The notes beneath the pieces are model-generated. The model saw only the letters and a program-made list of their open reading frames with translations. It had not been told where the DNA came from and did no database searches. 64,000 bases of DNA. It comes from Nemophila menziesii. Taxonomy: Eukaryota; Streptophyta; Magnoliopsida; Boraginales; Hydrophyllaceae. This document shows, in pieces, positions 7,110-64,000 of the stretch (its first letter is position 1; each line of letters starts with the position of its first letter). The stretch covers positions 79,760,224 through 79,824,223 of the forward strand of contig JARWIR010000002.1 in the NCBI GenBank assembly GCA_029959085.1. Direction: 5' to 3'. The position numbers and the translations under genes are program-made.

Positions 7110-7115
7110 AGTTTT

Positions 7116-11110: not shown

Positions 11111-12869
11111 TGATGTCTCCCTATTTGTTCTAATTCTTAGCCCATTGGAGACATCCTTTTAGGTGAATAAATGAGTTATTTGATAGACTTTTAGGCTTAT
11201 TTGATCATATTACACTTTCTCCCCTTGGAAATTAACTATTTGCAGAATCTGAGCTTTTGTGCGTAAATTTGACTATTTTTAATGCAAAGTTAACTGGTTC
11301 TTGAATTTCATGAAAGACCAATCCAAGGAGGAAAAGTTAGAATAAAGTCTTAGTGTATTTTAGAGTGTTAGGAAATGATTTCTAGTCGAGTTTCTATTTT
11401 TAGAGTACACTTTCCTATTTCGATTTCTTGATTTATTGATTTATTCTTTTTAAGCATATGCGGTTTAATTATTTATTTAATGTGAAGCTTTAAAAGATAA
11501 ATGGTAATTACTTAGAGACCAAGTCAAGATAAGGATGAAAGGAAATAAGATTTACAAGGAAATAAGAAGATTTGGTAAAGATTTGTTCAAAGGAGGAAAA
11601 GATAAAGCTGCCTTTTGAAATCTGAAATCCAGCCACGTTTTAGGAATTAAATTATAATAAAAGATTGGCTAGGATTCTGGACGAATGGTCTGCACCAATA
11701 GAAAGAGCTTTCCAAGACAAGCAGTTTCATATATTGGAACTTCTCAAACGGATAAGTATTCAAAAAGATATGACCAAATCAAATCAGCAGAATCTTATCT
11801 TTTAGAGCTACGAATTTAAGAGTCTTTGCCTTGTCTTCCACTCCAAGTAATTCGACCTAGGGCTTGCTAACACCTATAAATACACCCCTTAGACCTCATT
11901 ATTCAGCACCTCTCACAATTCATTCAATATATACATCCTTAGAGAGAGCGTCAAGAGGCGGAAGCAAGAGCAGAAGCTGGAGACTGTCTATATCTCCAAC
12001 AACAGTTCAAGCCAATTCCTCTATCTAGGTTCTTAATTTATTTCTGTTATTAGGAACATGTATATTATTAATTTCTTTATTGTTTTTACTTTTAATATGA
12101 GCTAAACCTTAATTACTTGAGAATCGTAATGGGATGAACCCTAATTTGTTTAATTCATGTATTTCAATTTGGGATTAGTTTCTAGTTTAATTTGAATTAG
12201 GTATTTCATATTGTTTCTTATTTTATTTTAATTTCACTATCAATGAATTAGCTAATCGGAGATAGGTCTTAGTAATTAAGCTATTCACTTTGGTGGGGAA
12301 GTGATCGCCTTGACGGGGGGTTTAATTACTGAACTAGATAATAAACGTAAGGTAGAAATTATTGATCCTGACGGACTTAGTTAACCTTATAGCCAATTGG
12401 GTAAAATAGTATTCATTCGAAGGTGGATTATGATCGCCCTGACGGGGTTTGTAACATCTGAGAATAGCTCCTAGGTCCACCCTGACGGGGGCTAGGAGAT
12501 TATAGAGTCCCGACTAATATAGAAATATCAGTTCTGCCCTTAAAGAAAGCATTAATTAGGTAAGTTTAGGTGATTCCCTAGCGAGACTCAAGTATAGCTC
12601 ATATCTGCATCTTAGTCCTTTAGTATTTATTTTCAGTATCTTATTTTCTTGCATTCTTAGGATTAATATAAAACCAAATAAATATCTTTTATCTTTTATT
12701 TTCTGTATTTGCAATTATTACTATTTATCTGTTGAACACTTGGGTTATACCAGTCCAATCCCTGAGAACGAATCCGACTTATCGGAGTATTACTTGGACA
12801 ACCGTACACTTGCGGTATTGTGGTTCCTTTTATTTTCGCATTAATTTTATAACACACCAGGACCCACCA
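11111..12869 (+). repeat. Element A 3' LTR
   Basis: 1759 bp, TGATGTCTCC...GACCCACCA, followed by TSD ATTAC. Nearly identical to the 5' LTR; it keeps the 17 bp missing there, near 11848-11864. Confidence 0.93.
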
Positions 12870-13171
12870 ATTACTAAAAATATATAAATAGAACACTCAT
12901 GTAAAATGATGAGTATGGACCAATGAACCTCTGATTTCATAAAAGTAATGAGTACACATGAAATTAACAAACCATTGCTTGCAATTAGACTACAAAACAT
13001 TAATAACCACATGTGAAGCGATAGAAAACTCAACCTATCCCGATTATTAAACGTATACATGTAATGAATTCATACATAAAACATATAATCATTAACCAGG
13101 AGTTAATTAACCAAGCAAATGGGATATACGTATGTTTGTGCAATCAAATAGCAGCTCTACAAGTGGACTGG

Positions 13172-25067: not shown

Positions 25068-25852
25068 TTGTTGATACTCAAAGAATGTTCATTATTTAAA
25101 TTCATGGTTATCATATTGCAAACTATTGTATTTTTCTGATTAATTAACTAGAATTGCAGTTCAATTATAGACTAGAACTACTGCAATAAGAAGAATGGGT
25201 AAAAGCAAATTGCAACTTAGATAATACCTAAGTCGTATCAATATCCATGTGATCAAATGATCCCTTGAATGTAACTTAGAAACATAACTACAATTATCAG
25301 AATATTAAGAACAAAACAGTTATATTCACCAAATCTAGGAGTATACAATTAATGTCCATTTGTGGTTATTTGAGATCATAACAAATCTTACATACTTTTC
25401 ATACACATCTGTCAGTTTCAAAGTCTAGGAGTTAATAAATTTTCACAGCATGCCAAGATTGAAGCATCAATTCAATATTTCCTTCTTTTAAGTGTATTAA
25501 CAAAGGAATATATGTGGCAATTTTGCCTAACACAGGGACCAAGGGTGCAATTACACACGGAGAAAATATTTATCAGGCAAATGTTACCTTCCTCATTGAA
25601 GAACAGAATCTATTAACGAGTTCTGAGACTCCAACTATTCCATCTGGTTCAAGCTTATTTGGAGCACCAATAATTGCTACATGATCATAAAACTGAAGCA
25701 ATGTCTTTGTATTTTGATATGAACGGCTTGTCTCAATGTACCGAGATCCAGAGCTACTACTCCAACCTGTTCGTAAGATTGTTATACTCAGTTACTAATA
25801 ATCACTAACAATTAGCTAATAAATCTCACAACACTGAGTTGCATTTATATAA

Positions 25853-27405
25853 GAGTAAATAACACTTTTGCCCCCTGGGTTTATACGCGATTGACAGGTT
25901 GCCCCCTAACTCTTAAAATGCGCCTCGTTGCCCCCTAAGATTTGTTTTTGTGACCCGTTACCCCCTACTGCGTGTTCCGTCCATTTTTTCCGTTAAAAGT
26001 GACGTGGCATTTCCATGTCACATTTTTTTTTTTTTTTTTAATCCAGGTGTTAATTGAGTTTTTAATTAATTTAAACCAAGGGCAAAAAAGGAATTTCATT
26101 AATAGGTTTTATAATATTAAATATAATTAATATAATAACCACCCCCCACCCCACCGCACCCCCCTACCCCCCCCCCCTCTCTTCCCCATTCCTCTTCTTC
26201 CCCGTTCTTCTTCTTCCCGTTCATCTGGTTCTTAAAAAAAAAAAAAAAAAAAAAATTCAAAGCTAATGAAATGGCATTGAAATCCATTCTTGTCCGCTGG
26301 ATCTGCGCAAGATGGAGCTCGGACTGGTGTAGCAGCTGGAGATGTAGATGGTGCTTCGTGGTGTAGCAGCTGGAGATGGTGCTTCTGTCCATATATTAAC
26401 GGCTGCTGTTGAAACCCACCAGCACCAGCTCCGGCGTATGCACCAGCTAAAGGTGCGGCAGCGTATGGATGAACAGGGAAGCTACCATATCCAGGGTTAG
26501 GAATGTAATTTGGGAGTGGTGTTGAACTCTGAGCTACACCAACGCCACCACCGCCGCCTGTATCGTATTTCTTTTCTGTTTGTGGCTTTGCGAGTACTAC
26601 TTCTAACACCTGGCCTGCATTTTAACACCAGTTAAGATATAATAAATATAGCACAAATTTAGGAAAATAGAAAACATATCTAGAGTGAGCATTAACATTA
26701 TTAAGAAACTCAGAAGGTGGAATGAACTTGTCTTGTAATTTATATGGTCATCAAGATTCAAGAGTAACTTTTCATAACCTCATGGTGATATATGACTTTA
26801 GTGCTGGTATATTTCATATATAATTTCTTTAAATTTCATAGATTTGGTTTTATATGGGGTTTTAGATATGGAAATTATATTTCTGGTGTATGGCTGGGGT
26901 TTATATATAGAATTGTGTAGAGAAGATTGATTATGCCAAGTATGCCCCTCAAGTAGCGTCAAACTCTTTGGGAAAGCAGATAATCCGATCTGTAGCTCAA
27001 AGCAAGAAATTTTTTTTTTTTTTTTAAGAACCAGATGAACGGGAAGAAGAAGAACGGGGAAGAAGAGGAATGGGGAAGAGAGAGGGGGGGGGGGTAGGGG
27101 GGTGCGGTGGGGTGGGGGGTGGTTATTATATTAATTATATTTAATATTATAAAACCTATTAATGAAATTCCTTTTTTGCCCTTGGTTTAAATTAATTAAA
27201 AACTCAATTAACACCTGGATTAAAAAAAAAAAAAATGTGACATGGAAATGCCACGTCACTTTTAACGGAAAAAATGGACGGAACACGCAGTAGGGGGTAA
27301 CGGGTCACAAAAACAAATCTTAGGGGGCAACGAGGCGCATTTTAAGAGTTAGGGGGCAACCTGTCAATCGCGTATAAACCCAGGGGGCAAAAGTGTCATT
27401 TACTC
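25853..27405. mobile_element. Pack-MULE with long near-perfect TIRs carrying an hnRNP gene fragment
   Basis: A 9-bp duplication TTTATATAA (25844-25852, 27406-27414) flanks inverted repeats of about 390 bp (25853 to about 26240, about 27018-27405). In the outer 170 bases compared by eye they differ at one position. Both TIRs contain four '(g/t)ttgccccct' blocks near the end and a G-rich tract. The centre holds an exon and intron of an hnRNP-Q-like gene and no transposase. A relative's terminus is at 54275. Confidence 0.92.
26390..26609 (-). pseudogene. Captured hnRNP-Q/LIF2-like exon fragment
   Basis: After an acceptor-like 'aaaatgcag' on the minus strand the frame reads VLEVVLAKPQTEKKYD, then PLPNYIPNPGYGSFPVHPY and GGFQQQPLIYG. 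This matches the region after the last RRM of plant hnRNP Q / LHP1-interacting factor 2 proteins. After LIYG the similarity stops and the sequence runs into the TIR. About 400 bp to the right look like the donor's intron. It is not expected to encode a working RNA-binding protein. Confidence 0.78.
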
Positions 27406-27414
27406 TTTATATAA

Positions 27415-28113
27415 TATTGTAATAATAACAAAAAACTAGTTCAATTTAAAATCTAGCTTACATTTTTTCTTATTTTAGTCTGTCATTGACATCAACTAAA
27501 ATAAGTATAATTTACATTTCTACATTATAGCACAAAAATAAAATTATAAATAAAATTCTATTTCGAAATTGATATATATTTATATATATATGCAATTCTA
27601 GGTGTATACGTGATCGTATGATCGTATAAGTGTAAATTATAATTACATATGGTTCCTATACTACTAGAGATTTATGACACTTTTCATTTGACATCTCCAA
27701 GTTTTCGAAAAGATTTAAGCAAATACTCATAAGCTTGTATGCGTAAATTACAGTAAATCGAATTATATGTAATGTACGTACAGTAAAGCGTGTATGTGTG
27801 TAAAGAGATATATAGAAGAGAGGATTGGGAATCTCTATGGCTCTGTTCTTCATGAGGCTAATGACGTAACTCAATGCTCCTCCGAAGGTAAAACAAAAAA
27901 TATTAGTGTAAACTTTGTGGCCGAAAAGATGCCACGTGACACTCTATTATAGACTCTTATAGAAGAGATCATTACCCCTCCATGAGTTGGAGCCAACTTC
28001 TACCATGCCCGGGGTGTATGTGTGCCCTACGGAGATGACGACACGTGGAATGGAAGAAGACACGTGGAAGAATCGTAGTGGCTAGAAAATATATTGTTTG
28101 TTTATTAGAGTAG
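27415..28113. other. AT-rich intergenic sequence
   Basis: No gene recognised. Three ACGTG/CACGT cores in 'gccacgtgac', 'cgacacgtgg' and 'gacacgtggaag' (27931-28070) resemble G-boxes. Confidence 0.35.
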
Positions 28114-28841
28114 GGGTTTTACTGTTATACCCTTACCGTCATTTTACTATCCGGTCATTCATTGATTGGTTGACATAAAGAAGCTTTTTGTGTCTTGTCG
28201 TGTCATGAATAGTGTTGAATTTGTTGACGAGAATTAAATAAAAAATAACTGAATTGTTTGGTGGTTTGTAAATTGTCGGTGTGAAAGGCGGCTATGTGGT
28301 TTTTTTCGTTCGAATGTTTCAGATGTAGGAAATGGTTCAATTTTGCACTTTTGCCACATGTCAACACGGGAATTATTTGGAATATAATAGTAGATGTCCA
28401 ATCCGAGCTACCTTTTGGTCTTTGTTGGATTATTTATGTAGTGTAAATTTTCGTTTTGAATTTGTTTGGACCAGTTCATTTTTTAGTTGTTGACTACAGT
28501 TGACTTCGGTTTGTCTTATGTAATCATTACTATTACATGCCACATGTCAATATGTGGGCATTTCTAATTAATAGATTAATTTTTTTTTGGTAAGAATTTT
28601 ATTTCCGGGTATTAAACCACTCTATTAACCATGGTTAGTATAATTTTTTCCTTTAATCTCTTAAGTTATATAAGAAACAACTATAGAAAATGTTATTTTC
28701 GAATCTAATTAAAAAAATTATGATATAATTAATATTTATATTCATTAATGGTGATAAGATAGATATGGTTGATGGTTGAAGGGGTAGTTAGTAGTTATTG
28801 TGTTGGGTTAATGCTATTTCACCTACCGATTAAATCCGAGT

Positions 28842-28850
28842 CTATAAAAT
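28842..28850 (+). promoter_or_regulatory. TATA box of the FAR1/MULE gene
   Basis: CTATAAAAT, about 130 bp upstream of the proposed ATG at 28975. It would place the transcript start near 28875. Confidence 0.55.
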
Positions 28851-28974
28851 GAGGGTGGAGGGGGTTAGTTTGAATGTGTATCAAAATTCGTCACTTAGTT
28901 ATATAGTCGGAAGCTTTTCGGGCAATATAGTTGGGAGCTTTTAGGGTGAATCGGGTGATTTTCAATCAAACGGG

Positions 28975-31900
28975 ATGGACTCAAATGGTTAGTAACTTAC
29001 GATTCTCGCTTTGCATGTTGTAAATTTTACGATGAATATTTTTTATATTTCGGATATTGTAATTTTTTACGTATGCATGTTGTAAATTGTTAGGTATCGT
29101 ATTGATTTTATGTTAGTGTTACGATAATCTATACTTGTTAGCATTAATCCTTCTCTATAATGGTTTTAGTTCTACCTATATGAATTAGATAGTGTTAACT
29201 TCGAATTTTATAATTAAGGGTAATGGTATAAGGTATATTGTTAGAGGTTAGGGGTAATGGGTATATTTGGTTTGGGGTATATGGTTACGGAATATGAGAT
29301 ATGGTTAAGGTTATAGGTTATGATATATGAATAAGGATAATGTTATACAAATAAAGGTGTGTTATGGTATATGGATAATGTTAAAGGATAAATTTTATGG
29401 TTGGGGGTTTGTGGTTAGGTGTTTCGGTATACATTGTTTAGTGGTATGGTTAATTTGTTACTTAGGGTAAATGTATATGGTTACTAGTTGTAGTTTATGG
29501 TTAAGGGTTAATAGATATGGTATAGGGTTATAGGATATGTTTAATGGTTTTGGTGAAGGTTTAGTTGTTAGGGTTTGTGGTTAGTAGGTATGGTTACGAG
29601 TTATTAGGTATGGTTAAGGGTTAATATTTATGGTTTATGGTTAATAGGTATGGTTACGGGTTAATATGTTTGTTTAAGGGTTAATAGATATGGTTAAGGT
29701 TTACTATTTATGGTTACGTGTTAATATGTATGGGTAAGAGTTAATAGATATGGTTTAGGGTTAATAGATATGGTTTAGGGTTAATAGATATGGTTTAGGG
29801 TTAATAGATGTGGTTTAGGGTTAATAGGTATGGTAAGGGTTAATAGATATGGTTAATGGTTGATAGGTATGGTTAGGATTAATTCGTATGGTTAGGGATT
29901 ACTATGCATGGTTAGGGGTTAATATGTATGGTTAGGGGTTAATAGGTATGTTTAGGGGTTATTGGGTATGTTTACGAGTTATTAGGTATAGTTAAGGGTT
30001 AATATCTATGGTTTATGGTTCAGAGGTATGGTTAGGGTTAATTGGTATGGTTAGGGATTACTATGCATGGTTAGGGGTTAATATGTATGGTTAGGGGTTA
30101 ATGTGTTTGGTTAGGGTTAATTGGTATGGTTAGGGATTTCTATGCATGGTTAGGGGTTGATAGGTATGGTTAGGGATTACTGGGTATGGTTACAAGTTAT
30201 TAGGTATGGTTAGGGGTTATTGTGTTTGGTTAGGGGTAAATTGTTATGGTTAGGGATAGATAGGTATGGTTAGGGGTTATTGTGTTTGGTTAGGGGTTAA
30301 TTGTTATGGTTAGTGGTAATTACGTATGGTTAGTGGTTAATAGGTATGGTTAGGGATTAATATGTATGTTTAGGGATTAATATGTATGGTTAGGGGATAA
30401 TATGTATGGTTAGTGGTTAATTGTGTTTGGTTAGGGGTTAATTGTTATGGTTAGTGGTAATTACGTATGGTTAGTGGATAATTGTTAGGGGATAGGGTTT
30501 AAATGGTATGCTTATTGTGTAATTGGTATAGTTAGGGTATTTATTTTTGTATACAGTTTTAGAATTCGTTATGACAAAAATGTTCTGTGTATAGGTGGTT
30601 CGAATTCGGATAACGATCTCGAGTTTGGAGGTGATGATGCCCTTAGGTCACTCACTCGGGCAAACATAATGGATTTGCGATTTTCATCTGAGGAAGAAGC
30701 TTACATGTTCTACAACATGTACGCCCGTGTCATAGGATTTGGTGTAAGGAAGGATCGTGTGGAAAAATCAAGCACAAGTAGTGGTATTGTTTTGAATCGG
30801 ATATTCGTGTGTTCTTGTGCCGGTATGCGAGAAAAGAAATACTTAGAAATGAAAGACAGGGTTAGAGACCACAGGGCAGAGACAAGATGCAACTGTAGGG
30901 CTAGGCTTCGTATCAAGTACGATAAGACGTTCGAATGTTACGTTGTGGCCGACTTTCAACCTGAGCACAATCATGAGTTAACACCTGCGTCCGCGACACA
31001 TTACATACGATCTCATAGGAAGATAGACGAAGGTCACCTCGACCAAGCTCTATCTCTACAGAACGCAGGGGTACGAACATGCAAGATAATGGACGTTTTT
31101 GTAAAAGAGGGTGGAGGGTATAAAGATATTGGTTTCATGAGGAAAGATTTGTACAACGTGCTAGGCCGGATAAGATCTGATGAAATCAGCCAGGGAGATG
31201 TGAATGTGGCCTTGTCCTACCTGGAGGGTAGGTGCGAGAATGATCCGTTGTTCGTTTTTAAGCACACGGTTGACGAAGAAAACCGTCTTGACAAGTTATT
31301 CTTCTGTGACGGGAGATCCAGGAGAGAGTTTGCAGTTTTCGGAGACGTACTAGTATTCGATGCTACGTACAGGACAAATGCTTATTGTTTCCCTCTTGTT
31401 GTCCTTGCGGGTGTGAACAACCATCGTAAGACTTGTATATTTGGTATTGCGTTGGTGAAAAATGAGACTACAGAGGCTTATGTGTGGGTCCTTGAAACTT
31501 TAACAGCAACGATGAATGGAAAGAAACCCAAATCTGTTTTAACCGATGGTGATAGATCAATGGGGTCTGCTATAGAAATCGTTTACCCGTCGGCGGCACA
31601 TCGGTTGTGCTCTTGGCATCTTAATCGAAACGCCGTTACAAACGTAAAGGTCGAAGGTTTTGGTGCAATTTTCAAACACCTGATGTCTTTTCCTTACACC
31701 GTCGACATGTTTGAAGATGCTTGGTGGAAGATGGTAAACGACAACGGTCTAGAAGAGGATAGGTGGATCATAGACACCTATGAGAAAAGGGAGATGTGGG
31801 CGGAGGCGTATCTACGTGGGAAGTTCTTCGGGTTCCTCAAGTCCACCCAGCGTTGTGAGGGTATGAACTCGTACTTGAACACTTTCTTGAGTAAACGTAA

Positions 31901-32753
31901 AAAGTTTATTGGATTGGTGAAAGCATTCTTGTTCGGTATGGTAAGAATTAGGGATAACGCCAACCAACAAGAGTATATCACAAACCACACTACACCTGTA
32001 CCGACGACACTTTTAGAGGATATCGAGATGCATGCAATTAAGCAATTCACGCGGGAAGCTTTTTTTAAAGTAAAAAAAGAGTTGATTAATCAAGGTGCCA
32101 TATGTCATAGAGGTGGGGTCATAGAAAGTTATAATTCTCGCACCTACATGGTTGCTTCACACAAACATACCGGTTTCACATGGAAGGTTGTTATTACGTA
32201 TGATGGTTCTAGGTTGCTTATCGAGTGCTCTTGCCTCTTGTTTGAATCGCACGGGATCCCGTGTAGGCATATATTCTATGTGATGAAAGTTGAGGGTGTT
32301 AGAGAAATACCGGATTGTTGCATTAAATATCGGTGGACACCTAGCAGCAGTTTGACTCTGAAGGAGAAGTCTTTGTCGGAATATAACCCAACCGACAAAG
32401 AAACAGCGAGGATGGGGTTCTTGAATGCGAAGTGGAAAGAAATACGGTTCCATGCTGCCCGGAGCGAGAGGGGGTATAACGAGACCCTAGAAGGGTTAAC
32501 GAACTTAGGGGCTCGAACATGCAACTTCCCGAACGACGACGGAAGTGCACTACCTGTTCCACCATTAGTGTCATATGACGTAGAGGATCCTGAAATTGCC
32601 CACCCAAAAGGTACAACTACGAAAGCACCGCGTCGCTGCAGCGTCTGTAGGTTACCTGGGCATCAGAAAAACACATGTCCTAGAGTATTAGAACGTTCAG
32701 GACGGGTACCCAATGAGAATAATCAAAATACACAAGAATTGCCCTTATTTTGA
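28975..32753 (+). CDS. FAR1/FRS-type MULE transposase, two exons, 723 aa
   Basis: Exon 1 is 28975-28987 (ATG GAC TCA AAT G), followed by donor GTTAGT. The intron 28988-30594 ends TGTATAG and exon 2 is 30595-32753. The frame upstream of the internal ATG 30669 is open back to the acceptor and encodes an acidic start, supporting this model. Domains (residues from the first Met): FAR1 zinc-binding DNA domain about 40-130 (CSCAG, CNCRARL, HNHELTP); MULE/DDE domain about 235-435 with Asp in FDATYRT, Asp in LTDGDRS and Glu in QRCEGMNS; SWIM finger about 560-590 (CSCLLFESHGIPCRHIF); C-terminal knuckle CSVCRLPGHQKNTCP. All key residues are present and no stop interrupts it. It may be a mobile Jittery/FAR1-class transposase or a domesticated FRS transcription factor. 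The Ulp1 partner gene favours the former. Confidence 0.83.
29200..30520 (+). repeat. Intronic 20-bp minisatellite with telomere-like core
   Basis: About 1.3 kb of degenerate tandem units such as GGTTAGGGGTTAATATGTAT and GGTTTAGGGTTAATAGATAT. Four units at about 29750-29830 are almost perfect. Each unit contains TTAGGG or the plant telomere heptamer TTTAGGG. The array lies completely inside the proposed first intron of the FAR1/MULE gene. Confidence 0.88.
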
Positions 32754-33842
32754 ATTAAGTATTTTTAATATATTCTAAGTATGTATTTTAGTTTATTTTC
32801 TTACATCCCGTATTGTATTATCGTTAAGCATTATGTTTTTTTGTTAACCGTATTGTAACAGTAGCGTAATATCTTTTAACTACGTAATATGAAGAATTTA
32901 TTCACCAGTTTCTATCTTGCATTTTAATCTTTCGTAAGCATCATTTTTTTCAAGCTCAAATGTTGTCTTCTACATAAAATGTTAAAGTTGTAATTTTTTT
33001 TAGTTTTACCATCCGTCTTTATTCTTCTTTATTAACTTCTAACTCCCCTAACTCCTCTTTCTACTTACCACTCTTACATACTAATAAATTGAAGTCATTT
33101 CAAACAAGATCTTGTAAAATATTTGATTTCTATCACAATTATAGCTAAGCCTCTATGAAGGAGGGTTTTCTTAGGTTGTTATCTCATCCTCCCATCCCAA
33201 CCACCTCCATACAACATAGCAAGCAATAAAGCCTCCTCACGTATGTATTACTAATATTTCTAAGTCTGCCAACTTGAAGCATTTACTTTAACTTAGTTGT
33301 GTTGTTGACTTATTAAGTTATTTTTTTTGTTTGTTCGAAATTGAAGCAAGCTTTAAATGACTTGCATGCAATTTAGTAAGCTTGTTTGCTCCCATATAAT
33401 TGTACAAAATTAAACAAAGGTGGTATTTGGTTATTTCCTTCTTACGCATGAACGTTCATGCGTGGAAGAATAAAAACAAAACCGTTTCTATTTTTTTGGC
33501 TTTTATTATTCAAAATTATCTCTTAAAAGAATTAATAGTTTTTTTTGACAAAAAGTGAAACCTCCACCTTACAAGCTATACACGTTGGGTTCCTTAAATT
33601 ATTAACTAAGAACTTAAATTTACCTACCATTTACTTACTAACCACTTTTGTACTCTTACTTTTTTACTTACCACTTGTACAATAATAAATTGAGCTCATT
33701 TAAAACTAGATCTTGGCCAATATTTGATGTCCATCACACTTATTGTTATACCCTCTATAAATGAAGTGTATTATTTTTGGGAAGTTTATTACTTACTCAT
33801 CTCCCATTCCAACTTTCCCATACAACAAAACAAGAATTGAAG
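32754..33842. repeat. Spacer with a duplicated promoter/first-exon region
   Basis: About 33030-33240 and 33630-33865 are diverged direct copies (shared 'cttaccact', 'taataaattgaagtcatttcaaac' / 'taataaattgagctcattt', 'catctcccattcc', 'catacaacaaaacaag'). The right copy holds TATA CTATAAATG (33755-33763) and ATG 33843. The left copy has lost both (ctatgaag; aag for atg). The rest is AT-rich without ORFs. Confidence 0.6.
33755..33763 (+). promoter_or_regulatory. TATA box upstream of GRF-finger gene 1
   Basis: CTATAAATG 80 bp before the proposed ATG at 33843. The equivalent position in the upstream duplicate is mutated. Confidence 0.5.
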
Positions 33843-34475
33843 ATGCCTCATCATGTAATATTACTTTATTTACCAATTTGGTTTAGCAAGCATATTTTCA
33901 TTGATTGCATGCCTACATTAAATCTTTTTTTTATTCTAGCATAATTAATGCATACTTTTATTTTGTTGTGGCCGTGAGTATCATTCATGGATAGGAGATG
34001 ATAAAACTTACATGTTGGTTCTATCATGCATGGAAATGGAATTCTTAACTAATTCATAACTAATGCATGTCACATTCTTATTAAATAGGAAATGGAGTCT
34101 ACCACGAAAAATTCGAGCTCTAGTCATGTTTGGTGCCGTGGAATTAATTCATACGAGGCTAACATGGTATTAAGGTATAGCCATACGTATTGTGTTTGCC
34201 GTAAAAAGTGTAACCTCCAATTGTCGACTCGGGAAGAGGAAAATGGTAACCACGACAAGCTTTATCATAATTGCCCGCTTCATGGTTTTGTTTGTTGGGC
34301 CCACCCTTACCATATGGATAGGGGACGATTGGTATCCGAGGGGAGCGCCGTAAACAACTACGATGATCGGACACAATTCCGCGAAGCCGATCGTTACGGG
34401 TCAAACCGAATCACAGGGGTTATGTTGGCAATCATGTTGGTCATGCTTGCAATAATACTAGAAATGTTATTCTAG
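33843..34475 (+). CDS. Small GRF-zinc-finger-like protein with C-terminal membrane segment (gene 1)
   Basis: The main exon holds ATG 34092 to stop 34475 (127 aa). The codon GAA before it directly follows an AATAG acceptor. A mini-exon ATG CCT CAT CAT at 33843-33854 with donor GTAATA joins it in frame, giving 132 aa. It contains CVCRKKCNL (about residue 35) and YHNCPLHGFVCWAHPY, a variant GRF-type finger (CxC...C...W), then a charged stretch and a hydrophobic end (VMLAIMLVMLAIILEMLF), probably a tail anchor. GRF fingers bind single-stranded nucleic acid in other proteins; here the function is unknown. A related gene lies at 36215-36568 on the other strand. Start choice is inferred. Confidence 0.6.
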
Positions 34476-35000
34476 GTAGGGGGTACGGTGTTGAATCATG
34501 CCATGTTTTACGGACTATTTTGATGTTAAACAAGTTCCGTCGGATATTATGCTTTTTATTTGTTGTTTTTATTTCCATGTAATGTTAATTCTTCATATAA
34601 TATTTTTTACTATCTATCATCTAATTACAAGTTGGGATTTTTATTTCCTATTTAAAATATTTAGTATATCACATTATTATTACATATCCTAAATTGTTTA
34701 ATTTTTTTGCTTTGCATTTGTAAATTACTACCTCCTATAGATAAAGATAGATAAAGGCCAAGAAAATCTTTCCACCAAAAGCAAGCTTCAAGCGATCCAA
34801 TTGTTAAATTAAATAAAAAAAAAATAAAGAGCCTCCAAACTGTCTAGTCAATCATTCAGGCAGATTGAGTGTATCAAAATGGAGCTTTGGAAGATGAAAA
34901 GGCTGAAAGGTGTATTAATCCCATCTACCCCCACCACATAATCCCAACGCATCTCACTATCCACCAACAGATTTCGAAAACCCTAACACAACCCACCACC

Positions 35001-35393
35001 ATGTCCAAGCTCTATGCTTCCGATTCTGAAAAATCTTCAATGGAGGAACAAGGTGATTCATTGAAGCAGCTTGTTAGACGCAGTCGGCGGAAAGCCAGCG
35101 CACCACGGAAGAAGAGAAGGATCTTCGAAGCTCCTCTCATGGACATAATCCCGATAGTAACACCGACCCCTCTTGCTGTTGTGTATTCCTCCGAAGACAT
35201 ACTTGCTTACGATGAGGAAACCCTAGAGCTTCCATGGATTGATCCACCACCGAAACTTGCGTTGCCATCCACTACACCACCGCCACTTGCTCTCCCATCG
35301 TCTTCAACAGCAACCCTTGCATTACCATGGACCACGGAAGCTGAAAACATGAAGGAGGGGGAGGAGATGAAAACCCCACATGAAGGTAATTAA
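35001..35393 (+). CDS. Hypothetical basic, proline-rich protein (130 aa)
   Basis: ATG 35001 sits in ACCACCATGTCC, a good plant start context; an upstream in-frame start at 34869 is less likely. Residues 25-42 include RRSRRKASAPRKKRR, a likely nuclear localisation signal. The C-terminal half has related proline motifs (LELPWIDPPP, LALPSTTPPP, LALPSSS, LALPWTT). No known domain is recognised. It lies between the transposase and Ulp1 genes and could be an accessory gene or a captured fragment. Confidence 0.45.
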   Translation: MSKLYASDSEKSSMEEQGDSLKQLVRRSRRKASAPRKKRRIFEAPLMDIIPIVTPTPLAVVYSSEDILAYDEETLELPWIDPPPKLALPSTTPPPLALPSSSTATLALPWTTEAENMKEGEEMKTPHEGN

Positions 35394-36214
35394 ATGGGAA
35401 TTTGGATATGGCTAGTAGTTATTAAATGTTTTGTGTGTTTTGTGTTGTTTTAAAAAGTATGTAAGGAATGGTGTGATACTGGTGAATTTTTGGAAGAAGA
35501 CAGTGGAAGAATCTATGGCCACCCACCATTTACACTTCTTTGTGTCTTCATCATCACCATCACACCCGTTATCTAGCTATGTTATCTCCATATATTTTCA
35601 TTTTCATATGTATTTCAATGTAGCTTTGTGTTGGTTTTTCAATGGTATCGTGTTTGTTTCTTCTAAATGAATTGGTTTGTAAAAGGTTTCTTCTATCCTA
35701 CTTCCACAAACTCACGCATGATGATAAAAACCTTTAAAAAAAATTGTTAGTTGTTAATTGATTCAATACGATTTTTTGTTTTAAAATGTAATTTTCATAT
35801 ATATTAAAAATCCAACCCACATGACACATTCAAGAAAGGAAACAAAATAATAGACATTACAATATTAAAATGATTAATTGATTTAAAAAAATAATAGAAT
35901 TTGGGGTTTTCATTCAAGAAAAATATATTCTTATCATTCAAATTTTTTGTTTTAAAATTTATTCGTATATAATATCTTTTATATCAATATGGGAGAATAT
36001 ATTTATATCCATACCACCCCATTCGTTTCTTGTTTCTTGTTCAAGACACCAGAACCTTGAAAAAAATACAAATATTAAAAATTAGCATGCATTAATAGAA
36101 AATAGAACAAACACAACCATTGCTAGGTAGTACTAATGGAAATGAAAAATCAAAACGAGAAAATTAAATAAACTTGCAACTAGAACAAACAAACAATACA
36201 ATCACTCACCCCTA
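35394..36214. other. AT-rich spacer, no gene seen
   Basis: The short open frame 35431-35670 has low-complexity S/H/F composition and no recognisable features. It probably includes the 3' untranslated regions of the convergent genes on either side. Confidence 0.35.
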
Positions 36215-36568
36215 TTATTTTAAAACAACCATCGCCATTAACACCATTACTAATACACAAAAGACATACATAACCCTTTTTAATTCGTCCACGGCCACTT
36301 CGGGTCTTGGCAATTCATGAGGGTGGTATAAGTCCTCTTGACGTGCCATTGTAGAAGATGATGCTTCGTTGTTGGATTCCAATGGATAACACCACCGGAA
36401 AAAACCGCAACCTCTCCAACAAGCAAAATAAAGAGCACCATAGTTACCCTTGTCTTGTCCTAAGGTAACGTAAGGGTGCAAATATCTTGGAGGTTTACAT
36501 TTGCATTTCAAGGGAGCCACACGAATCGAGTCACTAGCATCATGCTTTGTTGTTGAAGAGGAGCCCAT
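36215..36568 (-). CDS. Small GRF-zinc-finger protein with C-terminal membrane segment (gene 2, 117 aa)
   Basis: Start ATG at 36568 (MGSSSTTKHDAS); the longer open frame to 36781 upstream looks untranslated. Residues about 22-63 form a classical plant GRF finger: CKCKPPRYLHPYVT, GNYGALYFACWRGCGFFRWC, i.e. CxC, then C and GCGFFxWC. A linker with PHELPRPEV follows. The end (VMYVFCVLVMVLMAMVV) is a single hydrophobic helix, so a tail-anchored protein is likely. Plant genomes hold many such GRF-TM genes, often near transposons; their role is unknown. A 345-bp spacer separates it from the divergent ORF at 36914. Confidence 0.7.
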   Translation of the reverse strand: MGSSSTTKHDASDSIRVAPLKCKCKPPRYLHPYVTLGQDKGNYGALYFACWRGCGFFRWCYPLESNNEASSSTMARQEDLYHPHELPRPEVAVDELKRVMYVFCVLVMVLMAMVVLK

Positions 36569-36913
36569 CTCGATAAATTGTAAATTATAAAGTTTGAAAG
36601 AAGGATGGAAGTGAGGTGTGTTTTGGTGGGTGATAAAATCCCAAATATATAATCTATTAAAAAAAGTAACCGTTGGAGTGAATTGAATTGTCAAAAAATT
36701 CAAAATTTGTGTGTTGTCACATTGCCTTTTCTTGGAACCATAAAAGCATGCAAGAAAGGAAGGAAGGTACCTTACATTCACACGCCACCTTCTCCCTCTC
36801 CTATCTAAGTTTTTTAATATATTTTATTTTTTCTCACCTTCATTTGGTTATCCTTCACTACCAATTTCATCTTCCATTCCCTTACCTTTTTATCTTTCGA
36901 GCCATTAAAAAGC

Positions 36914-37459
36914 ATGACTCCAAATCCTCATTTATTCAAACCAAGACTCACTAAACAATACAATACACCAAGATGTTCAAGAAGAACAAGCTTCAAAAAG
37001 AGATACAAGAATTCTACAAAAAATACTAGTTGTTCATACCCTACCAAGACCAAGGATGATCTTGCAATAACCGAAGTTAAACAATGGGAACAAGACTCGT
37101 ATCCAAGGACTCCGGTAACAAGACTATCAAAAGGTAAATCAAAATCGGTTAATAATGTAGAATTGGTTAGTAACACAAGCACTACTACCCCCCTCCCATC
37201 TAATGACTCCTCCTCCTCATATAAGCCTTCACCCCTTACCTTGTCCTCTTCATCATCCGAGGAAATAAGTCTAAATAAACAAGTGAAGCCGGATAATGTT
37301 CCCAGACACGATGGAGTGGATACTCTAGTTCGTGATCTTGGTGGCGAAGGGGTAATGTTCGGGATTTTAAAACAAATCCTTGAAAGCATAAGTCGCATAG
37401 AGAAGGAAGTGGTGATCATAAAGTCTCGTTTCGAAGAAAGAGAACAAGACGGTTTGTAG
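36914..37459 (+). CDS. Hypothetical protein with C-terminal coiled coil (181 aa)
   Basis: ATG 36914 opens a basic N-terminus rich in K/R/S/T, a serine-rich middle (about 95-122) and a C-terminus with heptad spacing (VMFGILKQILESISRIEK...VIIKSRFEERE). No known domain. It is divergent from GRF gene 2. The minus-strand ORF over the same bases is a shadow. Confidence 0.4.
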   Translation: MTPNPHLFKPRLTKQYNTPRCSRRTSFKKRYKNSTKNTSCSYPTKTKDDLAITEVKQWEQDSYPRTPVTRLSKGKSKSVNNVELVSNTSTTTPLPSNDSSSSYKPSPLTLSSSSSEEISLNKQVKPDNVPRHDGVDTLVRDLGGEGVMFGILKQILESISRIEKEVVIIKSRFEEREQDGL

Positions 37460-38268
37460 TTTGTTTCCATTTGTTCATCATTATTGTTAGTTAGTTTAAG
37501 CATATCATGTTTGTTAGTTTAAGCATATCATGTATCTTGTTTTAGTTTGCTTGTATGGTCGTTAAGGGAGATGGATCTCTAGTTTTTTTATCACTAACGT
37601 ATTGTATTATGTATTGTATTTGCATTATTTTTATTTGTAGAATTGGAGTATGTTTGGTTAACAAGGTGTATAACTAAAATATTACAAAAGTTTCATATAT
37701 TGCAAAACCACCCCAAAAAAACGAAAATATACAAAACTACACTAACATTACTATCCACTTGTAAAACGACCCCCATTGGTTCATAAAAACATAAAAAATA
37801 CATTAAGGCCCAAGTAAAGGTACTTTTAAACCCACTCCACTTTTCACTAGTACCAAAAAGCCCCAAAGATAACTTTCTTAAAATACAAAACAACCCCAAA
37901 TGCTCAAAGACATAACAAAGTGCACCACTGTTTCGCAAAAACTAACAAAAACCAATATTACACCCAAACAGTAATAAACACCAACCACTGTTAAAGTTTA
38001 AATCCACCCTCTTTTATCTGTACAAATTAGCATAGGCAACAAGTTAGAACGAGTAGGCTCGGTTCGACACTAGAAACTGACTTCGTATTGTCACCCCGAT
38101 GAACTGGGAGACGTCACGCAAGTCAGCCAGGAGCCTCCCACTACCCGCTCGTAACTCATAACCAATGCCCTTTTTGACAGACAAACACAAGGTAACTTAA
38201 ACAGTACATTACATTACATCACTTACAAAAAAGAAACCCAATAAAAAAAAAGGAAATGTAGACAAAAG
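37460..38268. other. Spacer with a possible extra minus-strand exon
   Basis: Mostly AT-rich. At about 38043-38175 on the minus strand an open frame reads GIGYELRAGSGRLLADLRDV and then IGVTIRSQFLVSN, with coding-like codon use and unusually high GC. I could not connect it to the Ulp1 gene by good splice sites. It may be another fragment. Confidence 0.35.
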
Positions 38269-41200
38269 CTAATCCCTCTCTTCCATCCAATTCTTCATCT
38301 GGTTGCTATTCGATCTAAATAGAAACTGTGCTAACTCGAAACGCTTACCTTCTGATTCGGAACTCCTCCACTCTATTCGTCTAAAAGGAAAGCGCATCAT
38401 TGTGCAAACGTGAATGGCACAGTCATTCATGTTACATTGGTATGGTGCCCAATCAGCTACAACGTGAGCGAAACCGACAAGACGGGGGGCCCGACGACCC
38501 GTGTTAACATAATCAATCCAGTCCTGAAACTTTTCAGTCTTCAAGAACAAGAAACTCACCATGTTAGCAAATATCAAAAAATGAAGTTACAAAATACAAG
38601 TGACTTACAAGATATTCATAACGCTGCAAATAAGCCGCTCCCGGGCCCCTACGCGGCATTAGCGTATCGCAAATAATTCTCTTCGACTTCTCAAAATCTA
38701 TGATATATAACAACCAATGCTTCTCCCCGTTGTTAACGGGAATAAATACCTGTCATCATAAAAAAGACAGAAAAAAGTTAGAAAAATAAAATAACAGATA
38801 TTGGGATAAACCAGAACATTTACTTACTTGTTTGACATCTTTGAAATCCCCCGTGAACCTCTCTACCCCGTAAAACAGATTCGATAGCTCAAAGTTTGTT
38901 TTCGAACCATTCATAAGATGTGTCTAACAAAAAAAAACAAGCATATCCATTAAAAACAATAATTAAGTATTAAAATATTAAAAAGGCTGTAAAATTATAC
39001 CGCCAGGTACGTAGGCATAAACCACCGATAGCAACGGTGATCGTTAATCCTCTCATCTAGGCACAACTGCTCCACACATAGATCGATGACCTGAAATGAA
39101 GAAATTCAATTAAACACAACTAGAAAAAACATAACAACTAAAACCTAAACCTGTTTACTCACGTCTGCAGATACAAATGCTCCCGGTTCCAGTAGTTCAC
39201 GGAGGTGTATCCGTGACAGGTGATAATGCTCGTAAACTATGACCAATTCCCTACACACAAACAAATCAATACAAATTAATTATATACATAATACATTCCG
39301 AAAATCAAAATACTTACTGAGGGGGGTACTTCTTGTTCAAAAAGAATTTACGTAATGCCATATCATCCTCCATTAACTTTCTCCCGAACTCTGAGAAATC
39401 GTTTCCCGTCCCACGAAGCAATCCACGAGCCCTGGTACGAGGGCCCCTCCTCGAGCTAGACCCCACAACAGATTTACCGCCTCGTGTAGTTGAAGTGGGG
39501 GTTTCGAGCGGAGTGGGTTCGGGGGACACACGCGGACTAGGAATAGGACTAGGAATTGGTGACTCGTGTGGTGAAGGTATAGGGGATTCTCGTGGTGGGG
39601 ACCGCGTTGGTTCAGGTTGTGTTTTCTCACGAACCGAAGAATCTGCCATTGAGGAACTCCTTCGAGGGGTGTGTATTTGATGGCTAATGTCCATGGGTTC
39701 AACACTAGGAACCGGGCCTCGACCAACCGCCTCTACTAACTTCCGCATCAAACACAAAGCCTCTTGCAATTCTTCTCTACGAACGTAGTCATTCTTCGGC
39801 TTTCCCCTAGCCGAAGATGTGTATAAACCTTTGGCAACCTCATTCTCCTCGGGCCCCGTCTCCTCCACCGGTTTTCTATCAAATAACCCAAACCTACAAT
39901 TCCTGAAATTCTCACCCCCGTACCGCTCCAAGAAATCCACTTTGCGCTTAGTGGACAACGTAGTCCAATTCTTACAAAAAGGCAACTCCCGTGGTACCGC
40001 AGTGTGTTTCGCTGCTCTTTGGACATACTGGAGGAACAACACCTATAACCCAAATACCAAATACACATTAGAAAATATATAGAAACTATAAAGCATTACA
40101 AATAAAGATACTAAGATGTGCATACCTGTAATACATACACACAACCGTTAAAGTACTTCGTAGCCAAGTCAGGGGAGGCGGCCTTAAATTCAGCAATACC
40201 TCTCACGATTCCGTTGTAAATGAGATAACACCAATTGTAAGTAGGGATCAATTTCGGGTCCTTAATGGCAAAAAACAGTGACTCGTCTACACCATGAGTG
40301 CTGGTGGGTGCAATGAAATAACCATAGACATACATAACAAAGAGTTGCTTAAACACGTCCCCGTGAGACCTACAAGCTAACAACAATTCCTCTACTCTAG
40401 GCAACCTAACCACACTCGAGCTTACCCAATAACCGGCAAACATCATCTCTAAATCTCTAAAAACTTGGCAAGGAATACCATCCAAGGGGGGAACACTACC
40501 CCTCCTTGGCAAACCTAAGACTCTTTCTACATCTAAAGAAGAAAAACCTAGCATACTACCACACAAGTTAAAACAACTAGACTCTACATCGAATATCTCT
40601 GTCATAAATTGACAGATTTGATACTTAATTACCGATTTAGGAAAATCCAAGAAACCACCAAACCCGATTTCTTGAACCGCTTCCCGTTGTTCGTCGGTCA
40701 ACCTTATAGACATCTTACTGATTTTGGTCAGGGATAGCTTGGTAACAAGCTTAACCCCCGCCTGTAAAACGTTGAACAAGAAAAAATCAAAAGTAATTAC
40801 ACTAAATCAAAAAAAGTAAACAAAAAAGGAAAGTAAACAAAACTCACATTATCTTCTTCCTCCGCCTCGGTGGAGTTAATCGAGACACTTTCCGGTTGAT
40901 GGACACTTTCTCTAGCCGCGTTCTCGTAAAACTCTTTCTCACGAGGACCCAACTTGTGATACCTGGTCCGTATAGAATGCAAGTTCACCGGCATGTTGGG
41001 AAAGTTTGATCTGAACTCGGTCTCCATTAAGTTCCTAGGTAAAACACGAAAATCATAGTAAAGTAAGATGTCTAAAATTATACACAAAGAATAAAACCAA
41101 CAAGGGAATACTTACACGTAATACTCAAGCCCGCTCATCACACCCCTGGTTTCTTGTCCACTTGATCTGCAATCAGTTAACACCACATATAATTATTTAT

Positions 41201-41912
41201 ATTCAACTGTTAAAGAAAGTCTAAAGATGATCTTACATATTACATTCATTACCACTCAAATTCCATAATATATCTACTATGACACTATAATACCTCTTTA
41301 AAACATAATTTAAATACAACCCCAACACCCCCACAATCCTTACCCCAAATTAACTGTAAAAATTTAACAACTTCATTGAAATCAAATTTTAGAATATATG
41401 ATACCTTACACTATACTTACCCCAAATTCAGTGTGCAATTTAATCAACTATAGTACAATCCCAAATAATAACCAAATTTTTATACCTATACACATAACAT
41501 AACACTTAATCTCGCAACAATTAGAACCCAAAACCAATTAAAACACTAATTCAATAAATTACTCCTACACATTTGACTACACTAAACAAATTAAATGAAA
41601 TTATTGCAACAACAAAATTGGCCCAATTAAAAAACAACAATCTTAACCAAACCTTAACAATTTGAAAAAAAAATTGTGAAATCATTTCGAAAAAAAATTT
41701 GATTCCACAATTCGAAATAAAAATTCCAAATAACATACTAAAATCCTAATTCAATGTTAAATACAAAAGCTTTGCCTCGGATTACATTAATAGATTAATT
41801 TTTTTTTTATATAAAAAACCCTAAATCAATTTTTTGATACCAAAAAAATTAAAGCTTATGGTTACCTTCTCTTTGAAGTAGAGCCCTTCCTCTTAGATGA
41901 AGATTCCGACAT
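38269..41912 (-). CDS. Ulp1-like C48 SUMO protease, 10 exons, 776 aa
   Basis: Proposed exons: 41912-41866, 41166-41116, 41034-40848, 40761-40126, 40042-39318, 39250-39163, 39090-39001, 38923-38828, 38749-38609, 38538-38269. All introns are GT-AG, several with GTAAGT donors, and the phases close to 777 codons. Exon 1 is basic (MSESSSKRKGSTSKR). Exon 4 carries the N-terminal domain typical of plant transposon Ulp1 proteins (VESSCFNLCGSMLGFSSLDV, ERVLGLP). Exon 5 ends in an S/P/T-rich linker with 'SPIPSP' repeats. Peptidase: QVFIPV, His in EKHWLLYIIDF, Asp in IICDTLM, Gln and Cys in YQCNMNDCAIHV, so the H-D-Q-C set is complete. It would cleave SUMO or SUMO-like tails. It converges on the FAR1-type transposase gene, as expected for MULE cargo. 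Confidence 0.85.
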
Positions 41913-42420
41913 GATGGAAGAGGGTGTAGAGGAATTTGGTGCCGAAAATGATGGTGAGAAGGTTCTTCACGGCGCCGAGATGATTGTGATGGTAGGTGAT
42001 GATGATGATGAGATAGAGGCGTCGAGAAGGATGGTAGGTGATGTTTCTCACGGTTGGGTTGTTGATTACTTCCGGTGCGGTGCTTCAGCAAGACGGGGCT
42101 TTAGCTTCCGACGGAGATGGTGAAACGAGGAGAGAGAAACAGGCGTGCGTGGATGGAGAAGAGAGAGGGTGAATACATCAGTCAACAAGGTAAGAAGAGA
42201 GAGAAAATCACGTGCATATCACGTGATGCTGGAATAAAAGCATTAATAAAAAATCAAAATGCTATACGAGTGACACGTGGCGAAATCATTCAAAATATGT
42301 ACATTTCAAACCTGGAGAAATCCAAACGAAAAAATACACCACAACTGGAAAAAAATGAAAATGAAGTCATGCTATCAAACGAAAATATACACTACGTACC
42401 AAGGGTAGAATTGTAAAACA
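41913..42420. promoter_or_regulatory. Upstream region of the Ulp1 gene and putative right end of the large MULE
   Basis: Holds the promoter and 5' leader of the minus-strand Ulp1 gene; short ORFs (41911-42123, 42117-42416) are judged chance. It contains GACACGTGGC (42272-42281) and the inverted similarity to the 28.1-28.4 kb region. No sharp TATA box. Confidence 0.4.
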
Positions 42421-43109
42421 CCATACAAACGAATTTTTTTCATATTTTAATTGTTTGTCCAACGAAAAATTACCCATGACCCTAATTAAATCAAACTCAT
42501 AAAGTAGCTTTATGCAGAATATATTTAGATTCCCACAAAATCTTGTCAACTCAAGGACAAGTAAGTAATTTCATAATATATCTTTTTGAATTTTTTTATT
42601 TAATTATCATACGTTGGGAGCATGGAAGAAGTCCTCTGAGTTGGATGCTTGGAAATATAGTATGACCGCATCTTTTTTTATAGTATTTGCCTTTATGTCA
42701 TTATTAATGTAACACATTTCAGAAGAAAAAGAAAGCATATATAAAATTTTAAATAAGAATATAATAATATAAATGCCTTAAATTATGCATGCGTCTAAAG
42801 GATCATTGAAAAACGGTTAAGAATTCCCATAGCAGCCATTAGTCTTTCCTAAGTTCTCTCTAAAACAAAAACATGACAATTTCCAAAGTTCGCCATTGTT
42901 AATTCAGAAGAATATCTAATCGATTTTTACAAGATCTTTGTCTTCAGATAAACCAAAGATTAATTTCGAAATTTTAGAGATTAATATCAAAACTAGGTTG
43001 GAAGTCAATTTGAGAAAGAAAATCGTTGGGGTGACCTAGGCTAGGCCACCATTGCCAAAGGGTGCTGTTGTTGGCTAAGGAAAAAGCCTCCAATTTGGTT
43101 ATCTCGATA
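42421..43109. other. AT-rich upstream region of the RabA gene
   Basis: No gene. It presumably contains the RabA promoter and 5' leader. Confidence 0.4.
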
Positions 43110-63318: not shown

Positions 63319-64000
63319 CTATTCCAAAACCTGAATCTTCAACTCCAACTCAGGTACAGTTTTCACTTTCTTTGATTGAGGAGTTCTTGGACTTCTTGTA
63401 GCTCGTGTTGCCTCTTCATGGATGTTCTTGATTGTGCTCAAAGCTATACTCACACCAACTGAAACAGTATCAATATCTGTGTCCTTACGCGGAATCCTTG
63501 CGTCTAGACACAACTGAGTAATAGTACAAGGAAACTTTAGATTTTGTTGTTTCATTGGTGATTTCGCGAACCCCATGATTGTATCATAAATGATCTTGGC
63601 AACATCAAATGGTTTCTCCTCCAAAATACACTTAATAACAAATATGTGCTCTTTCTTCAACTCGGAAGTGTGTTTAATACCAAAGAAAGTGGGTATTATG
63701 AAACGAGACCAAACCTTAGCACGAGGTGTCAAATTGCTGCTGTAAAACTGTCCAGGATACCTTTCACCTTCAGGAATTGGGCTAGTCCCATTAATAAGCA
63801 CGGTCCCCCAAAGGGATTCAAAATCAAAAGAAGGGTCATTAAGAGTTTCTTGGAAGGGGCATGTTCCAGAAAAGTTGGGTAGTTTCAATGATTTCCGAAT
63901 ACGTTCAATAGAGAAAGGAACTACCTTTTTGCGGACATCAATGGCATCACGGGAGGTAGCTAAACCTTCGTAAAATTCTCGCACAAAAGTAGGAATAAAC
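63319..64000 (-). CDS. Plant transposon-protein domain ORF of element B, 5' end beyond window
   Basis: The frame is open to the window edge, so the true start lies outside. Visible: FVREFYEGLATSRDAIDVR, VVPFSIERIRKSLKLP, then RAKVWSRFIIPTFFGIKHTS and FDVAKIIYDTIMGFAKSP. It ends with a basic, then E/L-rich C-terminus (VKTVPELELKIQVLE). This pattern (REFY..L, SI..IR..L.LP, W..FI.....P..H) is that of the 'putative plant transposon protein' domain found in Athila-like and LARD elements; its role is unknown. Element A lacks it although the flanks are homologous. Confidence 0.72.
   Translation of the reverse strand, partial: FIPTFVREFYEGLATSRDAIDVRKKVVPFSIERIRKSLKLPNFSGTCPFQETLNDPSFDFESLWGTVLINGTSPIPEGERYPGQFYSSNLTPRAKVWSRFIIPTFFGIKHTSELKKEHIFVIKCILEEKPFDVAKIIYDTIMGFAKSPMKQQNLKFPCTITQLCLDARIPRKDTDIDTVSVGVSIALSTIKNIHEEATRATRSPRTPQSKKVKTVPELELKIQVLE

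Follow-up and report, generated by a model that had tools for sequence, protein, structure and literature searches.

A candidate autonomous FAR1/Jittery-type Mutator-like element in Nemophila menziesii that carries an Ulp1 gene and genes for predicted GRF-like membrane proteins

Do the six genes found side by side in a 64,000-nt stretch of Nemophila menziesii DNA (GenBank assembly GCA_029959085.1, contig JARWIR010000002.1, forward-strand positions 79,760,224 to 79,824,223) belong to one transposon, and what would the genes other than the transposase contribute to it? This whole stretch is referred to here as the window, and coordinates are those of the window unless another locus is named. A preliminary description had proposed a single large FAR1-class Mutator-like element (MULE) in which a transposase gene faces a ten-exon Ulp1 protease gene across two genes for small GRF-finger proteins (GRF-TM genes) and two further open reading frames (ORFs). 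Genome copies that share ends, perfect 9-bp target-site duplications and a recurring gene order show that it is a single Mutator-superfamily element moving as one unit. Judging from sequence, we read it, with a probability of about 0.6, as an autonomous FAR1/Jittery-type MULE with a putative anti-silencing gene of the VANC/KIU kind and predicted tail-anchored GRF-like fingers. Its features are as follows (aa, amino acids).

27983..27991, + strand: left target-site duplication, TGAGTTGGA, adjoining 27992
27992..42636, + strand: whole element, 14,645 bp, ends set by aligned genome copies
27992..28010, + strand: left terminal inverted repeat, short and imperfect, GCCAACTTCTACCATGCCC
28113..28586, + strand: left subterminal region, degenerate inverted similarity to the right end
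28975..28987, + strand: transposase exon 1 (ATGGACTCAAATG), a prediction based on splice signals and reading phase
29579..30482, + strand: tandem array of 45 copies of 20 bp, in transposase intron 1
30595..32753, + strand: transposase exon 2, with FAR1, MULE DDE core, SWIM and C-terminal zinc knuckle
33058..33252, + strand: probable 5' relic of an additional GRF-TM gene, 73% similar to 33661-33865
34092..34475, + strand: GRF-TM gene 1, 127 aa, C-terminal hydrophobic segment
35001..35393, + strand: ORFA, 130 aa, open, basic stretch (by eye)
36568..36215, - strand: GRF-TM gene 2, 117 aa, C-terminal hydrophobic segment
36914..37459, + strand: ORFB, 181 aa, open, possible C-terminal coiled coil (by eye)
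41912..38269, - strand: Ulp1 gene, ten exons, GT-AG introns, 776 aa, stop-free; exon 4 PMD/DUF1985-like by way of a relative, Pro/Ser-rich repeat region in exon 5, C48 match at residues 603-743
42236..42422, - strand: right subterminal region, degenerate inverted similarity to the left end
42618..42636, - strand: right terminal inverted repeat, short and imperfect, GAGGACTTCTTCCATGCTC
42637..42645, + strand: right target-site duplication, TGAGTTGGA, 9 bp, perfect, adjoining 42636

The genome (1.517 Gb in 361 contigs) was searched for copies, the one in the window being designated copy A. In alignments of the fetched copies, B and D match the window across 27992-42636, copy E covers 27992-42628, copy C covers 28046-42636, and the alignment of copy F begins at 27992. 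The two end zones of the element find their matches elsewhere in the genome in pairs. The termini thus set lie 122 and 217 bp outside the ends originally proposed (28114 and 42419), which were too short. Perfect duplications also flank copy B (GTATATTTG), copy D (CAAATTATG) and the elements designated C309 (ACTAATTCA) and C200 (CAAAAACAG), and those of copy E (CAAAAGAGC, with the end extended by 8 bp), the C79 element (TAATTCTTA) and the C158 element (GGTATATGTC, 10 bp) were read by eye. Each of the 8 copies that could be read at both ends, which belong to three families, thus has a perfect duplication of 9-10 bp, inside the 8-11 bp range of MULEs, in which 9 bp is the usual length; for C79 and C158 the end zones only were retrieved. 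The count leaves aside copy C (54 bp of the left end gone), copy F (left part only) and a relative at C264:2.71 Mb, the termini of which were searched for and not found. An exact 9-mer near 28114 and 42419, ATTGTTTGT, was rejected as a target-site duplication, as it is not adjacent to those ends, the true termini lie farther out, and a 9-mer in common turned up in 126 of 3000 pairs of random zones. No duplication stands beside 28113 or 42422, the borders of the subterminal similarity.

The termini are close to the non-TIR (terminal inverted repeat) MULE type, consisting of imperfect inverted repeats of about 19 bp followed by degenerate subterminal similarity. The inverted similarity of the two ends noted in the preliminary description holds as a reciprocal best match within the window (E 6.6e-4 and 3.4e-4, sensitive search), but it is subterminal, and plain gapped alignment of the end zones gives a score of 92, inside the random range (300 windows, top 103; 200 shuffles, top 97). 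Among 2016 non-repeat chunk pairs, 1 reached at least 35 bits; the end pair, split by chunk borders, scored 28.3.

The transposase is intact as first described, predicting a stop-free product of 723 aa from two exons joined across a GT-AG intron, and the acceptor in the C309 family likewise reads TAG then GT. Pfam matches are FAR1 (9e-20), MULE (1.6e-27) and SWIM (2.4e-4), and the residues of a C-terminal zinc knuckle are present, giving the FAR1 plus SWIM or CCHC composition of Jittery/FAR1-type proteins. D260 and D322 are invariant among 30 aligned relatives, E426 differs in 1 and H346 of the C2H motif in 2. The FAR1 family is large in this genome, with at least 151 matches, many of them open frames of >700 aa. 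Protein database searches gave 148 transposase matches, the best-scoring two being 43-44% identical over 94%. Among the 120 matches listed, Hibiscus syriacus accounts for 19, Citrus sinensis for 12 and Rhododendron molle for 10 (counted by eye), and the spread across those plants is as expected of transposons. In a tree built from the query plus 93 of the 120 matches listed (those of at least 540 aa, a set from which Jittery itself is absent), the query groups with proteins P0001 and P0002. The transposase has no PDB match at E 1 and only weak NCBIfam matches, to IS256 and IS1249, under cut-off; no relatives of the element were found in viral contig and genome contig collections. The FHY3/FAR1 binding site, CACGCGC, occurs once in the window, outside the element.

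The ten-exon Ulp1 gene proved equally intact. Its product matches Peptidase_C48 (5.6e-10) and, aligned to yeast Ulp1, keeps the catalytic residues H651, D668, Q721 and C727, as KIU proteins with intact catalytic residues do; the match to yeast Ulp1 in the PDB is weak (E 0.035). H-D-Q-C also align in all three other families (C309, C200 and C264); at residue 651, C309 has V in one overlapping alignment piece and H in another. Exon 4 of the C264 relative, 49% identical to exon 4 of the window gene, matches PMD (2.1e-5) and DUF1985 (0.004), and through this relative the N-terminal domain of the window protein appears linked to PMD/DUF1985. The Pro/Ser repeat of exon 5 recalls, by analogy, the variable region of VANC.

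The region between transposase and Ulp1 (32754-38268) holds five ATG-initiated ORFs of at least 117 aa, the longest (191 aa) antisense to ORFB, and none of 300 shuffles of it gave 4 or more ORFs of at least 115 aa. The two GRF-TM genes and two ORFs reported there are open, and the GRF assignment stands as a likeness. The products of GRF-TM genes 1 and 2 (GRF1 and GRF2) are alike (BLASTP E 8e-4, a single comparison). As no Pfam GRF model scores over its cut-off (PF23549, E 0.016 for GRF1 and 0.18 for C264 GRF2, with no match in five other family members scanned), they are named GRF-like. A hydrophobic segment lies at or near the C-terminus in 9 of 9 GRF-type proteins compared, with mean hydropathy of 2.48-3.13 and 0-10 residues after it. 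The full module may have three GRF genes, since C309 has two GRF1-type genes plus GRF2, the window retains only the probable 5' relic at 33058-33252, and copy E carries about 0.5 kb extra just past that relic, with an open GRF1-type frame. Across the genome, 33 of the 114 GRF loci have one of 150 listed FAR1 matches no more than 6 kb away (chance about 0.1%), and in such pairs GRF is on the same strand as the transposase and downstream of it in 42/42 matches. At G000:C1:46030731-46362357, six alike GRF1-type genes stand 54-99 kb apart with no listed FAR1 match nearby.

The module, in order, comprises a FAR1-type transposase, GRF-TM, ORFA, GRF-TM (reverse), ORFB and Ulp1 (reverse), and the search for further copies of this order found it complete in the diverged C309 element (C309:2617231-2632320, 15.1 kb). 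There, order and orientation are unchanged, and identities to the window are 83% for the transposase, 54% and 60% for the two GRF1-type proteins, 72% for ORFA, 52% for GRF2 (- strand), 41% for ORFB and 42-68% for Ulp1 (- strand). Order and orientation recur in the 12.8-kb C200 element (transposase 69%, GRF1-type 28%, GRF2 36% (-), Ulp1 29-54% (-)), where ORFA and ORFB are marginal. The C264 relative has a transposase (68%), GRF1-type (33%), GRF2 (38%, -) and Ulp1 (-). It also includes an extra F-box ORF (locus L029, 6478-7434, - strand; Pfam 4.8e-7), possibly a captured host gene. That related elements keep much of the gene set suggests that the extra genes aid element survival in the host.

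Each of the six genes keeps an open frame in the window copy. Copy B has every gene in frame save one stop in ORFB, and dS between A and B is 0.004 for the transposase and 0.009 for Ulp1, a divergence of <1 million years at a substitution rate of 7e-9 per site per year. The element is recently mobile and apparently autonomous. Copy C has a frameshift in the transposase; in copy E both the transposase and Ulp1 are frameshifted, and ORFB is partial and contains one stop. Copy D (G000:C1:24859001-24866476) has both ends, the 9-bp duplication and an intact transposase, and has lost the equivalent of 32789-39660 (6.9 kb), a deletion that took the GRF genes, the ORFs and the 3' part of Ulp1. The ratio of nonsynonymous to synonymous substitution (dN/dS, Nei-Gojobori) was calculated for one pair, A against the older copy E, counts for B and C being too few. 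Five of the six genes, ORFB excepted, have values below 0.4: GRF1 0.12 (127 codons), transposase 0.23 (722), Ulp1 0.32 (771), GRF2 0.37 (117) and ORFA 0.38 (130). Copy E is partly decayed, which shifts dN/dS towards 1, and the low values are therefore conservative.

Family-specific tandem repeats in non-coding DNA, as found in VANC/KIU systems, are present in 3 of 4 families (window, C309 and C264). The array of the window lies in a transposase intron (28988-30594) in which C makes up 3.3% of the plus strand, and its counterpart in copy E has 53 repeats of 20 bp. In C309 a 99-bp unit is repeated 9.8 times directly before transposase exon 2 (locus L031, 1753-2722), and in C264 a 99-bp unit is repeated 22.8 times after the transposase (locus L029, 3827-6082). 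The 354 distinct 8-mers of the window array include 167 in common with copy E, 2 with C309 and 6 with C264; control stretches (n=49) share a median of 17, above the C309 and C264 values, and the C309 and C264 arrays have 34 in common. TTGAC-N4-6-GTCAA palindromes, which contain the W-box core TTGAC, number 8 at the C309 locus, all in the array, and 26 at the C264 locus, 24 of them in the array, with none in the window.

From these features a way of working can be proposed. The DDE transposase would cut and paste the element from its short termini, and the related subterminal regions would drive inward transcription of transposase and Ulp1. The Ulp1 protein would act as VANC and KIU proteins do, its PMD/DUF1985-like part being directed to the element's own non-coding DNA, especially tandem arrays, and its C48 protease stripping SUMO or a similar tag off silencing factors, so that the element would stay unmethylated. 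GRF-TM proteins would be tail-anchored, their zinc ribbon pointing into the cytosol or the nucleoplasm, and their possible ligands at the nuclear envelope or endoplasmic reticulum are DNA and RNA. ORFA probably encodes a small basic protein that binds nucleic acids, and ORFB probably a small oligomerising partner. Anti-silencing is favoured because the PMD/DUF1985-C48 layout and the family-specific arrays parallel VANC and its targets. VANC anti-silencing has been described from Arabidopsis VANDAL elements; the excerpts used here give VANC proteins as combining DUF1985 with variable, repeat-rich regions, and their targets as non-coding tandem repeats that vary among related elements (PMC5735166, PMC10398659), and KIUs are described as Ulp1-bearing VANC genes (excerpt of PMC13317346). 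A more elaborate version, which we put forward tentatively and regard as rather unlikely, is a multi-protein survival system composed of a self-targeted PMD/DUF1985-Ulp1 factor, co-evolving array targets and cooperating tail-anchored GRF-like fingers, which may draw the element's DNA, RNA or silencing complexes towards the nuclear envelope or endoplasmic reticulum.

A number of observations weigh against an anti-silencing MULE with GRF-like fingers. Apart from C48, the window Ulp1 has no Pfam match even at E 10, both exon 4 matches of C264 (PMD and DUF1985) are under Pfam curated cut-offs, and neither domain is matched by exon 4 in C309 or in C200. None of 8000 scored candidates was a relative of the Ulp1 protein at E 0.001, and for residues 95-360 none of 1384 was at E 1. 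The arrays are partly alike, GGTTAG occurring 26 times in that of the window, 17 times in C309 and 0 times in C264; C200 has no array scoring >150, an AT run excepted; and, unlike VANDAL, no array motif is scattered over the other non-coding parts of the element. The GRF assignment draws on a residue pattern, the likeness of the two genes and weak matches, and 81 of the 114 GRF loci are more than 6 kb from any listed FAR1 match; these may be remnants, families with an unlisted FAR1 match, or GRF genes elsewhere. The small ORFs that C200 has in the positions of ORFA and ORFB are of marginal similarity (E 0.009 and 0.003), and similarity of ORFA and ORFB to C264 is not significant. ORFB is weak in its own right, with an A-E dN/dS of 0.81 (120 codons) and one stop each in copies B and E.

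Three other explanations were weighed. Within the same single MULE, Ulp1 and the GRF-TM proteins might serve maturation, nuclear import or stability of the transposase instead of opposing silencing. C48 proteases take SUMO off many nuclear proteins, which would suit such a role, but the resemblance of the PMD/DUF1985-C48 layout and family-specific arrays to VANC and its targets speaks against it, and we hold it doubtful. The extra genes might alternatively be passenger cargo, transduplicated host genes with no role in the element. MULEs do capture host genes, the C264 relative has an additional F-box ORF, copy D keeps its ends and 9-bp duplication despite its 6.9-kb internal deletion, and Ulp1 in MULEs has been termed transduplicated in the excerpted text of PMC2528002. 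Against this, order and orientation recur at transposase identities down to 68-69% and GRF identities down to 28%, and dN/dS is 0.12-0.38 for GRF1, GRF2, ORFA and Ulp1. ORFB alone could be drifting; cargo without a role is improbable. That host genes or nested unrelated transposons became adjacent by chance would agree with the finding that none of the six genes has a second copy inside the window (tblastn, six proteins). It is refuted by the joint recurrence of both ends in near-identical copies with 9-bp duplications and, further, by the recurrence of the gene set in diverged families, leaving it a negligible chance.

The rest of the window contains other mobile DNA. A fold-back element at 25853-27405, with arms of about 400 bp that are 98% identical, resembles a non-autonomous TIR-MULE-like insertion and is flanked by a 9-bp duplication, TTTATATAA, at 25844 and 27406. 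Direct repeats of 1.74 kb (5368-7110 and 11111-12870), 99% identical, are like the long terminal repeats of a young retrotransposon and lie inside a remnant at 1-14 kb. A plant transposon domain, Transposase_32 (5.9e-26), occupies 63322-63999 on the - strand and is open to the window end.

An intact, recently mobile FAR1/Jittery element with a VANC/KIU-like gene and diverging arrays would allow a test of whether counter-defence of this kind arose repeatedly among plant transposons or was inherited, and near-identical copies make such a test practical. The GRF-TM genes represent a selected element function; if the multi-protein survival system is real, its accessory proteins anchored in membranes would give plant DNA transposons a component of a new kind.

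Among known systems, the Jittery-like (FAR1-type) MULEs, such as Jittery of maize and CitMule of clementine, share with the window element the FAR1 domain, MULE DDE core and SWIM. CitMule also has short degenerate termini and 9-bp duplications (PMC4334395), but according to the excerpts it spans roughly 7 kb and has a single transcript of five exons, whereas the window element is 14.6 kb with six genes. For dicot and monocot members of the Jittery subgroup, the portion of a Mutator survey drawn on here (PMC6446971) tabulates a single ORF and, in entries that state a duplication length, 8 bp, against 9 bp here; with six genes against a single tabulated ORF, the window element is therefore called a variant of the Jittery/FAR1 type. 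The VANDAL and Kaonashi (KI) MULEs are alike in family-specific tandem repeats in non-coding DNA and, by way of the C264 relative, possibly in the DUF1985 of VANC, and in KI-MULEs the C48 gene is antisense to the transposase, as it is here. KI-MULEs differ in their mudrA-type transposase, and GRF-TM genes go unmentioned in the excerpts on them. NEIL3-type GRF zinc fingers share a CxC then C..CGFFxW pattern (by eye), and NEIL3 chain 7jl5 gives a weak phmmer match to GRF2 (E 3), but the GRF proteins of the window are small, carry a hydrophobic segment at the C-terminus and showed no further domain. A further parallel bears on the view that Ulp1 accompanies only MuDR-type transposases in MULEs. 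Jittery-like MULEs of melon and grapevine carry Ulp1 together with a FAR1/Jittery-type transposase (PMC2528002), and that part of the claim to a different module therefore fails, the pairing being already published. The excerpts of that paper make no mention of GRF-TM genes, ORFA or ORFB, and no report of them as MULE genes was found in the open-licence PMC literature. The GRF-TM genes, ORFA and ORFB, all present in the window element, remain the set that distinguishes it from the published Ulp1-bearing Jittery-like MULEs.

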